NCBI GenBank assembly: GCA_005881025.1
Contig: VBFO01000045.1
Span: 1-48,899, forward strand
DNA: 48,899 nt
Source: Chloroflexota bacterium
GTDB lineage: Bacteria > Chloroflexota > Dormibacteria > Dormibacterales > Dormibacteraceae
Reading direction: 5' to 3'
Shown: positions 21,842-25,883 of the stretch, one piece after another
Layout of the letters: every line of letters starts with the position of its first letter
Position numbering within the stretch: the stretch's first letter is position 1
Notes under the pieces: generated by a model
What the model saw: only the letters and a program-made list of their open reading frames with translations
Told to the model about the DNA's origin: nothing
Database searches by the model: none
Program-made: the position numbers and the translations under genes

Positions 21842-21916
21842 CGCGGAGTGGAGCAGCGGCAGCTCGTCGGGCTCATAACCCGAAGGTCCTTGGTTCGAAT
21901 CCAAGCTCCGCAACCA
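21842..21916 (+). tRNA. Initiator tRNA-fMet (CAT), CCA encoded
   Basis: 75 bases including encoded CCA. The acceptor arms CGCGGAG (21842-21848) and CTCCGCA (21906-21912) pair except for C1 and A72, the unpaired first position that marks bacterial initiator tRNA for formylation and keeps it off EF-Tu. The anticodon stem has GGG/CCC around CTCATAA, the three G-C pairs needed for P-site entry. The D stem is GAGC/GCTC and the T arm CTTGG-TTCGAAT-CCAAG. These features separate it clearly from elongator tRNA-Met. Confidence 0.95.
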
Positions 21917-22008
21917 ATGACCAATTCGTGAGGGGCTCCCGCGGGGTCCCTCTTTTCTGTCTCAGGCCGGGGGCGCCCGTTTAGCATTCGGCAATCCACA
22001 GCATCCCC

Positions 22009-24282
22009 TTGCGCCAATGCACCGTCGTGGTACTCCTTGTTGCCGCGATCCCGTTGGCCACGACGGCCATCAACGCCGGCGCGAGCCCTGGATGGGCGAT
22101 CACCTCGACCGCAAACCCGCCCGTTCCCAACGGCTCGATGGCGGCGGTCAGCTGCGGGAGCAGTACCGCCTGCATCGCCGTCGGCTCGTACGCCTCGAGC
22201 TCCGGCAGCTCAGCACCCTTTGCCGAGTCTCGAGCCGGCACCACGTGGACGCTGCAAAACGTACCTGTTCCGGCTGGTGCCGTCGCATCATTTTTCAACG
22301 CCGTCTCATGCGTCTCGGCCACCTCCTGCACGGCGGTCGGCTACTTGACCAACAGCGTGGGCACGCACCTTCCAATCGCCGAGCATTGGGACGGAACCAG
22401 CTGGTCGGTCCAGCCGATCAACGGCGAGCCAGGCGCGAGCGTGACGGAGCTGTGGGGGATCTCATGCGTCTCATCTAGCGCTTGCATCGCGGTCGGCAGC
22501 TACGCTGCGAGCTCCGGTCGGCTCACCTTTGCAGAAGCCTGGGACGGCAATTCGTGGTCGGTTCAGTCGACACCTGATCCTCCGCAGTCGACGGCCCACC
22601 TCAGGGGTGTTGCCTGCTCTTCGTCGACCAGGTGCATCGCGGTCGGCAGCTCGACCTCGAGCTACACGGGCCGGACATCGACCCTGGCCGAGCACTGGGA
22701 CGGCACAACATGGAGGATCCAGTCGATGCCGAACCTGGGCGGCGTAGCCGAGTTGAGCAGCGTGGCCTGCTTCACGGCCATCTTCTGGGGCACGTCCTGC
22801 ATAGCTGTCGGCTACTTCAACTCGGGCAGTTTCACCGGTGGCCTCCCGCTCACCCTTGCCGAGCTGTGGTGGGGTGGCAGGTGGAGGCTCCTGGCCGCAG
22901 CGAACCCCGCCGGCACGATCGGCGCCTTCCTCGACGGCGTGTCCTGCAGTGGGCTTGGCGTCTGCGCCGCCGTGGGGTATTACGAGCCAGGCTCCGGCTC
23001 TGCGCCCATCCTTCCTTTGAGCGAAACCTGGGACAGCCGAGCCGGGTCCTCACGATGGTTCATCGGCACCACGCCAAGCCCAAGCGGCACGCTCAACGCC
23101 CTGTTCGAAGGAATCGCGTGTCCACAGCCGGCGTCGTGCGTCGCAGTGGGCTACTACGCGCAGACAGGTGCGGGCCCGGCAGGGGCCCGAGCGAACACCC
23201 TCGCCGAGGCGTCGAGTGGCGGCACGTGGTCCATCGAACCAAATCCCAATCCGCCGGGATCGATGGGCGCGGGCCTGAACGGGATTTCCTGCCCGGCCGC
23301 GAATGCTTGCGAAGCCATCGGCTTCTACGCCGACCCATCGGGCAATCTGGCGACCCTGGCTGAAAGCTGGGACGGCACCCAGTGGGCCACGCAGGCAAGT
23401 CCCAATCCGACATCACCCAGCTCGGCGACCACTGCGGTTTCGTGTCCAGCGGCCACCACCTGCATGGCGGTCGGCAATTACTACAACGGTTCGGCTTCGC
23501 AGGTTTTCAGCGAGAGCTGGAATGGGACCTCATGGTCGATCCAGTCCACACCAGGGCCCTCAGGTGCGGTCGACGCGCATCTGACCTCGATCTCGTGCCC
23601 GTCAGCAACTGATTGCACGGCGGCGGGCTATTACTCGACCACGGGAAGCAACGAGCTGCCCCTGGCGGAGCTCTGGAATGGCTCGGCCTGGTCGATCCAG
23701 TCCATGCCGATCCCTTCCGGCTCGCTGACCGCGGTGCTGGAGGCGGTTTCCTGCTCGTCCAGCGGCGCATGCGTGGCGGTCGGGTACTACAGCGCGTCCT
23801 CGAGCGGTGGAACGCTGGCCGAGAGCTGGGACGGCGGCGCATGGTCGATCCTGCCAACGGCCAAACCCAACGGCTTCTCGGGTAGTTTCACCGCGGTCAG
23901 CTGCCTGTCCGCCACGTCCTGCGAATCCGTCGGAGGATTCAATCCCGGCACTGGATACCCGACGCCGTTTGCGGCGAGCTGGAATGGTTCGACCTGGACG
24001 ATCCAGAGCATGCCGACACCGGGCGGCTCCCTGCTGTCCGGGGCGACCGCGCTCTCATGCACTTCCAGCTCGAACTGCACGGCAGTCGGGTACTACGAGG
24101 CGAGCTCCTCGTTCGAGTACTTCACCCTGGCCGAATCCTGGAACGGCGCGTCTTGGTCGGTCGCGGCCACGCCAAACCCTCCGGGGCCTGCCGGCTCCCG
24201 GCTCTTTGGGGTTGCTTGTCCCACCAGCTGTATGGCCGTCGGGCGCGGAAACGGCGAGACCCTGGCGATGTCCGACGGCTGA
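22009..24282 (+). CDS. Secreted protein of 14 Cys-pair repeats
   Basis: 757 residues. After a hydrophobic N-terminus typical of a signal peptide (about 5-25) the whole protein is 14 modules of ~50 residues. Each has a core like VSC-(5-7)-C-x-AVG, then a Gly/Ser-rich segment, then LAEsWdGtsWsvQstPnP. The paired Cys in each unit suggest one disulfide per module outside the cell. The regular beta-turn pattern suggests a propeller-like or solenoid fold; I know similar repeats from Actinobacteria and Chloroflexota, without assigned function. There is no sorting signal or C-terminal helix, so it is probably released or bound non-covalently. TTG 22009 has little ribosome-site support; GTG 22027 is an alternative. 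It sits between two tRNA genes in an otherwise housekeeping stretch. Confidence 0.8.
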   Translation: MRQCTVVVLLVAAIPLATTAINAGASPGWAITSTANPPVPNGSMAAVSCGSSTACIAVGSYASSSGSSAPFAESRAGTTWTLQNVPVPAGAVASFFNAVSCVSATSCTAVGYLTNSVGTHLPIAEHWDGTSWSVQPINGEPGASVTELWGISCVSSSACIAVGSYAASSGRLTFAEAWDGNSWSVQSTPDPPQSTAHLRGVACSSSTRCIAVGSSTSSYTGRTSTLAEHWDGTTWRIQSMPNLGGVAELSSVACFTAIFWGTSCIAVGYFNSGSFTGGLPLTLAELWWGGRWRLLAAANPAGTIGAFLDGVSCSGLGVCAAVGYYEPGSGSAPILPLSETWDSRAGSSRWFIGTTPSPSGTLNALFEGIACPQPASCVAVGYYAQTGAGPAGARANTLAEASSGGTWSIEPNPNPPGSMGAGLNGISCPAANACEAIGFYADPSGNLATLAESWDGTQWATQASPNPTSPSSATTAVSCPAATTCMAVGNYYNGSASQVFSESWNGTSWSIQSTPGPSGAVDAHLTSISCPSATDCTAAGYYSTTGSNELPLAELWNGSAWSIQSMPIPSGSLTAVLEAVSCSSSGACVAVGYYSASSSGGTLAESWDGGAWSILPTAKPNGFSGSFTAVSCLSATSCESVGGFNPGTGYPTPFAASWNGSTWTIQSMPTPGGSLLSGATALSCTSSSNCTAVGYYEASSSFEYFTLAESWNGASWSVAATPNPPGPAGSRLFGVACPTSCMAVGRGNGETLAMSDG

Positions 24283-24373: not shown

Positions 24374-24404
24374 GGAGCCGGGGGTTCTCGGCTCCTCTGC
24401 TTTT
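24374..24404 (+). terminator. Hairpin with short T run upstream of a tiny basic gene
   Basis: GGAGCCG (24374-24380) and CGGCTCC (24389-24395) form a perfect 7-bp stem with an 8-base loop. TTTT follows at 24401-24404. It may end the repeat-protein transcript or act as an attenuator for the next small gene, whose GGAGG ribosome site starts right after the T run. Confidence 0.45.
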
Positions 24405-24413
24405 GGAGGCATC

Positions 24414-24497
24414 CTGAACAAGAGAAAGCGGGTCGCGCTCGCCAAGCGAAGGCTGAAGAAGAGAAAGCTGAAGGCACGCGCCGCGGCCTCGCGGTAG
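24414..24497 (+). CDS. Putative 27-residue, very basic protein with a non-standard start
   Basis: A short frame encoding NKRKRVALAKRRLKKRKLK and then an Ala/Arg tail, ending at TAG 24495. About half of the residues are Lys or Arg, like the smallest ribosomal proteins (bS22/AURKAIP1-type or THX-like), though I cannot match it to one of them. A good GGAGG (24405-24409) lies just before it, but the frame has no ATG, GTG or TTG: candidates are CTG 24414 (4-base spacing) or ATC 24411. It ends 24 bases before a tRNA gene. It could be a translation-related protein controlled by a weak start, or chance. Confidence 0.4.
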   Translation: MNKRKRVALAKRRLKKRKLKARAAASR

Positions 24498-24521
24498 GAT
24501 TCGGCCGCTCTCGGCCGCGCT

Positions 24522-24597
24522 GGTGCCGTAGCTCAGGTGGTAGAGCGCGCGACTCATAATCGCGTTGTCGCTGGTTCGAGTCCAGCCGGCACCACCA
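24522..24597 (+). tRNA. tRNA with CAT anticodon, probably tRNA-Ile2 (lysidine type), CCA encoded
   Basis: 76 bases. The acceptor GGTGCCG/CGGCACC is fully paired, so it is not the initiator. The D arm is GCTC...GAGC, the anticodon arm CGCGA-CTCATAA-TCGCG, and the T arm GCTGG-TTCGAGT-CCAGC, followed by A73 and CCA. The anticodon stem and T arm closely match E. coli tRNA-Ile2 (ileX), whereas E. coli elongator tRNA-Met has CATCA/TGATG. The adjacent gene is tilS, whose enzyme turns the C of this anticodon into lysidine so the tRNA reads AUA. Elongator tRNA-Met remains possible. Confidence 0.85.
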
Positions 24598-25883
24598 TGC
24601 CACTCGATTCCGCCATTCGGGCACAAATGGCCGGGTTAGCGCAGTTGAGCCTTGACCCTCGCCAGCGGGTTCTGGCGGCGGTCTCGGGAGGCCCCGACTC
24701 CACCGCGCTGCTGGTGGCTTTGACAGAGGAAGGCTTCAGGGTCGTCGCGGCCCACTACGACCATGCACTGCAGCCGGCGTCTGCATTGGTGGCGGACCAC
24801 GTGGAGCGGATGTGCGAGTCGATGGGGGTCGAGCTCCTGAGGGAGCGCCGCACCACACCGATGGCGCGCGGCTCGCGCCAGGCCGCGGCGCGCACGCTCC
24901 GTTACGACTTCCTTCTTCGCGCCGCAGCTCAGTCGGGCGCGCCGGCGATCGCGCTGGGACACACCGCCGACGACCTGGTCGAGGGGGCGGTCATGCACCT
25001 GCTCCGAGGATGTGGGATCGCAGGCATGCGGGGCATGCCTTCACGCCGTGGAATTTTCGTCCGTCCACTGCTCGGCGTGTGGCGAACCGAGGTCCTCGAC
25101 TTCCTCGACCGGCGCGGGATCGGTGCGGTCGCCGATCCGGCCAATACCGACACCACGTATGCCCGTGTCCGGGTGAGGAGCGAGCTGCTGCCTGCGCTCG
25201 AGCGCGACCGGCCGGGCATCACGCGCCGGATCCACGCGGCGGCGCTGAGAGCCGCCGGCCTCCAGGACCAGATCGAGCTCCAGGCGGCAGCGCTGCTCTC
25301 GAGCGCGCCACTGACGACGGCCGCCGTGGCCACCCTCAGCGAACCGGTGGCGGTCGAGGTCCTGCGTCAGCTGTATGCGCGGGCAGCCGGCGTCGAGCCG
25401 GCCCTGGCCAGGACGCACCTGATGGCAATGCTTCGACTGATCCGCGGCGGCAGCGGCGGACGGGGCGTCGATCTGCCCGGCGGCCTCAGGTTCCGGGTCG
25501 TGGCGGAGCGCGCCCAGATCGTGCCTCGGGTTCCCCCACCGATGGAGCTCTCACTTGCGACCCGGTCATGCGACGGATGTGACGACGCCGAAGCAGCCCA
25601 CCTGCAGAGTGGCCTGATCCTCAGTCTCGGCTTCAGGCAGCCGGGGCTGACGATGCGCCCGGCGCCTGGGCGCGGAACTCGCAAGCTGCAGGACATCTTT
25701 GTGGACGCGCACGTCCCGCGCGAGGACCGTGACACCTGGCCGCTTGTCTTTGCCGGGCGGCGGCTGGCGTGGGTGCCGGGCGTTGCCGTCGATCGAGACC
25801 TGCGCGCCAATCGTGGCGAGACCTCTCTCCACGTAACGGTGACACGTATCCTGTCGTCAGGACTTCAAAAGTCGCCATGGTAG
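24597..25883 (+). CDS. tilS: tRNA(Ile)-lysidine synthase TilS
   Basis: Uses ATP and lysine to modify C34 of tRNA-Ile2 to lysidine, changing its identity from Met to Ile. 428 residues from ATG 24597. The PP-loop SGGPDS is at 30-35, then HYDHALQPAS, RGSRQAAARTLRYDFL and GHTADDLVEG, followed by TilS-like middle and C-terminal substrate domains (RPAPGRGTRKLQDIFVD). The A of the ATG is the last A of the tRNA's CCA. Alternative ATG 24627 would give a 418-residue protein and skip an 18-bp repeat. There is no ribosome site in front because the tRNA occupies that space, so translation needs uncut precursor RNA, a leaderless mRNA or the later ATG. Confidence 0.93.
   Translation: MPLDSAIRAQMAGLAQLSLDPRQRVLAAVSGGPDSTALLVALTEEGFRVVAAHYDHALQPASALVADHVERMCESMGVELLRERRTTPMARGSRQAAARTLRYDFLLRAAAQSGAPAIALGHTADDLVEGAVMHLLRGCGIAGMRGMPSRRGIFVRPLLGVWRTEVLDFLDRRGIGAVADPANTDTTYARVRVRSELLPALERDRPGITRRIHAAALRAAGLQDQIELQAAALLSSAPLTTAAVATLSEPVAVEVLRQLYARAAGVEPALARTHLMAMLRLIRGGSGGRGVDLPGGLRFRVVAERAQIVPRVPPPMELSLATRSCDGCDDAEAAHLQSGLILSLGFRQPGLTMRPAPGRGTRKLQDIFVDAHVPREDRDTWPLVFAGRRLAWVPGVAVDRDLRANRGETSLHVTVTRILSSGLQKSPW
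24613..24630 (-). repeat. 18-bp dispersed repeat, copy C (inside tilS start region)
   Basis: On the minus strand this reads CCATTTGTGCCCGAATGG, identical over 18 of 18 bases to the copy at 43096-43113. It encodes residues ~6-12 of TilS if ATG 24597 is the start, and ends around the alternative ATG 24627. Confidence 0.6.

Follow-up and report, generated by a model that had tools for sequence, protein, structure and literature searches.

The locus described here lies in a window of 48,899 nucleotides, i.e. the whole stretch of DNA that was analysed, and combines a very small gene with two methionine tRNA genes, two hairpins and the gene for a tRNA-modifying enzyme. The features, in order along the forward strand, are as follows.

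21842..21916, + strand: initiator tRNA-fMet gene, with the arm GGGCTCATAACCC and the end CGCAACCA, here 2.5 kb from the small open reading frame
21930..21952, + strand: 10-pair terminator-like hairpin, directly behind the tRNA-fMet gene
22009..24282, + strand: open reading frame for a 757-residue repeat protein, between the tRNA-fMet gene and the small gene
24374..24395, + strand: 9-pair terminator-like hairpin with seven GC pairs, followed by TCTGCTTTT (tail TCTGCTTTTG)
24405..24409, + strand: Shine-Dalgarno-like GGAGG site, read from the sequence, 4 nt before the CTG
24414..24497, + strand: 27-codon gene, with a CTG start assigned by homology, a TAG stop codon at 24495-24497 and the product (M)NKRKRVALAKRRLKKRKLKARAAASR
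24522..24597, + strand: elongator tRNA-Met(CAT) gene, 24 nt behind the stop codon of the small gene
24597..25883, + strand: tilS, for tRNA-Ile lysidine synthetase (Pfam ATP_bind_3 and TilS_C), translated from a provisional start at 24597

The two tRNAs are the only Rfam matches in the window, and the signature by which the first was assigned as an initiator is that of Escherichia coli tRNA-fMet, which we take to apply here. The repeats of the 757-residue frame resemble AVSCxS..CxAVG..LAESWDGxxW, and its sole domain hit is to DUF2510, at 27 bits against a cut-off of 24. Between the stop codon of the small gene and the tRNA-Met gene lies an inverted repeat, CGGCCG-CTCT-CGGCCG (24498-24521), which is possibly a processing or pausing element.

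The order in the window is GGAGG, C, ATC (24411-24413), CTG (24414-24416), 26 more codons and TAG. This bears out the first-pass annotation, which had described GGAGG followed by ATC CTG, with a basic frame of 27 codons ahead of a tRNA, and which was also right that a standard start is missing, ATG, GTG and TTG being absent within the frame. Given the apparent CTG start and the neighbouring methionine tRNA gene, the small gene is one that annotation would overlook. Lysine and arginine make up 14 of the 27 residues of its product; the window contains 64,186 open stretches of 27 codons (counting overlaps and the gene itself), of which 71 encode at least 14 such residues and eight at least seven lysines. 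Composition by itself is a weak argument for the small gene, and conservation is a strong one.

The window peptide was matched once in its own genome, and the first peptide search was positive for 35 of 61 genomes, i.e. 35 of the 37 from its own family (f1) and none of the 24 from the other families of the class. A wider profile matched 39 of 42 listed f1 genomes at E<=2.7e-7, the three without a match being 63-86% complete; in this search of 110 genomes none outside f1 reached E<=0.01, the best having an E-value of 0.064. In a sample of the phylum, the profile matched at E<=0.01 in 142 of 400 genomes, representing 84 of 225 genera. The lack of matches at that threshold in the other genomes of the class implies that the protein is not needed throughout the phylum. 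For comparison beyond f1, 40 of the 101 matched non-f1 genomes were taken, mostly the best scoring with some weak ones, and three loci without the motif (L092, L098 and L099) were dropped to leave 37 wider loci.

The frame is intact in all 35 f1 loci, with N2, K3, R4, K5, V7, A8, K11, R13 and K20 invariant, and N2, K3, A8 and K11 are invariant across an alignment of 44 rows drawn from 10 of the 35 f1 loci and 34 of the 37 wider loci. The N-terminal signature of the family is MNKRKRVAxxKHR, and its members are usually about 24-45 residues long. Over codons 2-24, the median dN/dS among the f1 loci is about 0.15 (552 usable of 595 pairs), and third codon positions account for 55% of pairwise differences. 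Many open frames arise in high-GC DNA, and a chance frame was thus worth considering here, but its probability is negligible, as it is already refuted by the conservation, the low dN/dS and the fixed N-terminus. Stops, frameshifts or a lost Lys/Arg pattern in relatives, which the first-pass annotation had named as refuting its proposal that a small basic gene without a standard start codon had been missed, were looked for in the 35 f1 loci; the frames are intact, the Lys/Arg columns are conserved and the proposal is supported. From these comparisons of sequence, we conclude that 24414-24497 is a real, conserved gene under purifying selection, in which the N-terminus and the charge pattern are kept.

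The first-codon column is occupied in 39 f1 loci by ATG (20), GTG (12), TTG (3), CTG (2) and ATC (2), a tally that combines 35 loci (with 16 ATG and the same numbers of the other codons) with four further ATG loci; in the 37 wider loci it is occupied by ATG (32), TTG (4) and GTG (1). The CTG at 24414 falls in this homologous column. The ATC at 24411..24413 (+ strand) was rejected as the start, since a single nucleotide separates it from GGAGG and it lies outside the homologous first column. The nearest in-frame upstream ATG, GTG or TTG is the TTG at 24216, 66 codons up, which was likewise rejected, lying within the preceding open reading frame and ahead of its stop codon. The second CTG locus (G013) belongs to a different genus from the window genome, and has a GTG at codon 7 and another 17 codons upstream. 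ATC occupies the column in L015 and L017, from two species (G004 and G016) of one genus, where GGAG lies 8 nt upstream and no codon but ATC is a candidate start for the conserved N-terminus; neither locus has an ATG, GTG or TTG in frame upstream before a stop, and both have two such codons internally, GTG (codon 7) and TTG (codon 14). Starting at these internal codons would cost the protein its most conserved part, and on this alignment CTG is very probably the start of the window member.

An assembly or sequencing error, with the CTG standing for an ATG, GTG or TTG, is conceivable in that the genome is a draft of 172 contigs (87% complete) and that one of the three standard codons is present at the homologous position in 35 of the 39 f1 loci. 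We consider it unlikely, because CTG recurs in another genus, ATC is present in two further genomes and, in the two ATC loci, the frame reaches a stop upstream without passing a standard start codon. By analogy with infC, which encodes IF3 and whose AUU start likewise falls outside ATG, GTG and TTG, it is also possible that the weak start is an autoregulatory device, by which the protein or the fidelity of initiation controls the gene's own translation. The four CTG and ATC starts are spread over three genera, ATC is common to two species with slightly differing upstream sequences, and the preceding gene is often that for tRNA-fMet, all of which favour such a device. ATG, however, predominates both in f1 and in the wider loci, and the coding sequences of the two ATC loci hardly differ, such that the two may represent one event. 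infC retains its AUU start widely; the small gene encodes a different protein and its start codon is not conserved within its family, CTG or ATC being present in only four of the 39 f1 loci. The mark of infC-type autoregulation is that expression falls as the product rises, and overall we regard its operation here as rather improbable.

The first-pass annotation had reported a 7-bp hairpin ahead of the ribosome site; the hairpin is present, but has nine pairs, not seven. It has the GC-rich stem and T run of an intrinsic terminator, and scores 0.02 against 100 mononucleotide shuffles, whereas for the 60-nt leader as a whole, compared with dinucleotide shuffles, z is only -1.4. A strong upstream hairpin (<=0.05 against 100 mononucleotide shuffles) is present in 20 of the 25 f1 loci outside the genus g9 and in none of the 14 within it. 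The start codons of g9 are ATG in 13 of 14 loci, and those of the 25 other f1 loci are ATG (7), GTG (11), TTG (3), CTG (2) and ATC (2); because the hairpin-less, ATG-rich loci belong to one genus, they may reflect a single historical event. In the sister family f3, which lacks the small open reading frame, a hairpin of this kind, likewise with a T-rich tail, directly follows tRNA-fMet. Given this and its absence from g9, the hairpin was rejected as a dedicated regulator, and the idea that it might allow control of the small gene was not sustained. The simplest reading is that it is the terminator of an upstream unit, either a tRNA or a gene. Intrinsic terminators behind tRNA genes likewise consist of a GC hairpin and a T-rich tail, here between tRNA-fMet and the open reading frame, though in the window the hairpin follows the 757-residue frame and tRNA-fMet has a hairpin of its own. 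A sigma-70 promoter was looked for and none was found; with just 9 nt between the end of the hairpin and GGAGG, the small gene is probably reached by read-through.

The place of the gene is conserved within f1. The elongator tRNA-Met starts 8-61 nt past the stop codon in 34 of 35 f1 loci, and tRNA-fMet ends at most 400 nt upstream of the small frame in 27 of the 35, such that in most f1 relatives the tRNA-fMet gene adjoins the small gene; several other genomes also have longer sequence between the two. In the sister families, tilS was matched in 10 of 12 genomes, with two Met-anticodon tRNAs upstream of it in eight of the 10 and one in the other two, over the stretch examined. Five of these eight have 45-132 nt between the tRNAs and nothing resembling the small frame, and the other three, from f3, have a gap of 812-833 nt from which the motif is absent. 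Thus, both tRNAs and tilS are kept in the sister families without the small gene, whose link to this position is confined to f1. Comparison of the neighbours of 41 loci (37 wider and four f1, antisense frames included) revealed none that is conserved outside f1. A TPR gene precedes and a PucR-type regulator follows the small gene in 13 of the 41, and in 11 of those 13 a gene with radical-SAM, UPF0004 and TRAM domains, i.e. those of a tRNA methylthiotransferase, lies two genes upstream; a phosphorylase is upstream in eight of the 41 and an NTPase overlaps or is downstream in seven.

With respect to known small proteins, the nearest family is bS22 (AURKAIP1/COX24, mS38-like). Excerpted text of one source describes bS22 and bL37 as additional, short and basic proteins of actinobacterial ribosomes beyond the E. 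coli set, with bS22 as the structure-functional counterpart of eL41 (PMC10085706), and an excerpt of another describes Borrelia bS22 as unannotated and as having a GUG start (PMC10618245). The small protein is like bS22, mS38 and eL41 in being short (about 25-33 residues), with half or more of its residues lysine or arginine, predicted to be helical, easily left unannotated and with non-ATG starts in some members. An AlphaFold2 model of a 30-residue relative (L083) is a single helix over residues 3-29, with a pLDDT of 94. The small protein also shares with bS22 a similar RK[R/K][V/I/M]..[K/H]..R spacing, but does not have the GSVIKKRRKKM start or the KTRWQRR end. A register-preserving resemblance was found with hhalign, which aligned 21 columns, matching RKRVA..KHR with RKKI..HKYR (28 bS22 loci were read, of which 22 yielded sequence by pattern), and favours membership of bS22; the probability, though, was only 20%, and the score was 16.5 against a maximum of 17.2 for shuffled columns, with one of 60 shuffles at or above it. 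So faint a resemblance leaves a very old kinship possible.

Searches with small ribosomal protein profiles, as suggested by the first-pass annotation, yielded no match: neither the three query peptides (the window protein with an initial M and two composites) nor six exact members matched any Pfam or NCBIfam family at E<=10, including the bS22 profile PF08213. The window genome has a separate PF08213 gene (G000:C88:2266-2349), scoring 34.8 bits against a curated cut-off of 23, PF08213 was matched in 56 of the 61 genomes searched, and both families are present together in 41 of 400 genomes by a hand count of two profile tables. The small protein is therefore not the bS22 of its genome, and membership of bS22, a family characterised by binding to the h2/h27/h44/h45 pocket of 16S rRNA, is mostly refuted and in our view very unlikely. 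The bS22/COX24 genes L119 (at G000:C88) and L120-L122 have TTG or GTG at the GSVIKK start and are easily missed too. bL37 is comparable to the small protein, being in the excerpted account of Actinobacteria a short ribosomal protein that is limited to some lineages and annotated as hypothetical (PMC10085706); PDB sequences, however, gave no match to a composite query.

Judging from composition, size, breadth of occurrence and neighbours, a ribosomal or RNA-binding function is most likely. The reading that we favour, with modest confidence, is that 24414-24497 encodes a Lys/Arg-rich, single-helix protein of an unnamed phylum-wide family, most likely an rRNA-binding, lineage-specific ribosomal or ribosome-assembly protein. 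Such a protein might bind rRNA in the manner of bS22, bL37 or eL41, with its basic helix in an rRNA groove. Its CTG would be read by the initiator tRNA, aided by GGAGG, with low expression as a result; the upstream hairpin, as an intrinsic-type terminator, would pass only some transcription, and the small mRNA may share a transcript with the elongator tRNA-Met, which lies 24 nt downstream, and be separated from it by tRNA processing. Counting against this reading are the negative searches of family libraries, PDB sequences and sigma-70 promoters, and the lack of a conserved neighbour outside f1 and of matches in the other genomes of the class; a basic helix is likewise expected of non-ribosomal DNA- or RNA-binding peptides. 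It is possible, though less likely, that the product is a real small protein whose helix has tRNA, a different RNA or the nucleoid as its target. The adjoining tRNA-Met gene in f1 and the nearby tRNA-modification-type gene in another group are consistent with such a role, as are the long Lys/Ala/Pro-rich C-terminal tails of some members (L082 and L095; up to about 145 residues in total), which are reminiscent of DNA-binding tails. The neighbourhood, though, is not conserved across the phylum, and the length of most members suits small ribosomal proteins. Extending the ribosomal reading, it may be that this is an undescribed, phylum-wide ribosomal protein of Chloroflexota beyond bS22, the synthesis of which, in Dormibacteria, from a gene between the initiator and elongator tRNA-Met genes and with some CTG or ATC starts, could sense initiation fidelity or the supply of initiator tRNA; we consider this combination improbable.

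No paper naming the protein family was found in the open-licence literature, using the signature peptides and small ribosomal proteins of Chloroflexi, Chloroflexota or Dormibacter. A protein family conserved across a phylum can thus escape profile libraries, and some of its members escape gene callers limited to ATG, GTG and TTG. Orthologues differing in their start codon (ATG, GTG, TTG, CTG or ATC) constitute a natural set for studies of initiation. If the protein is on the ribosome, it would be an extra component of the translation machinery of this phylum.
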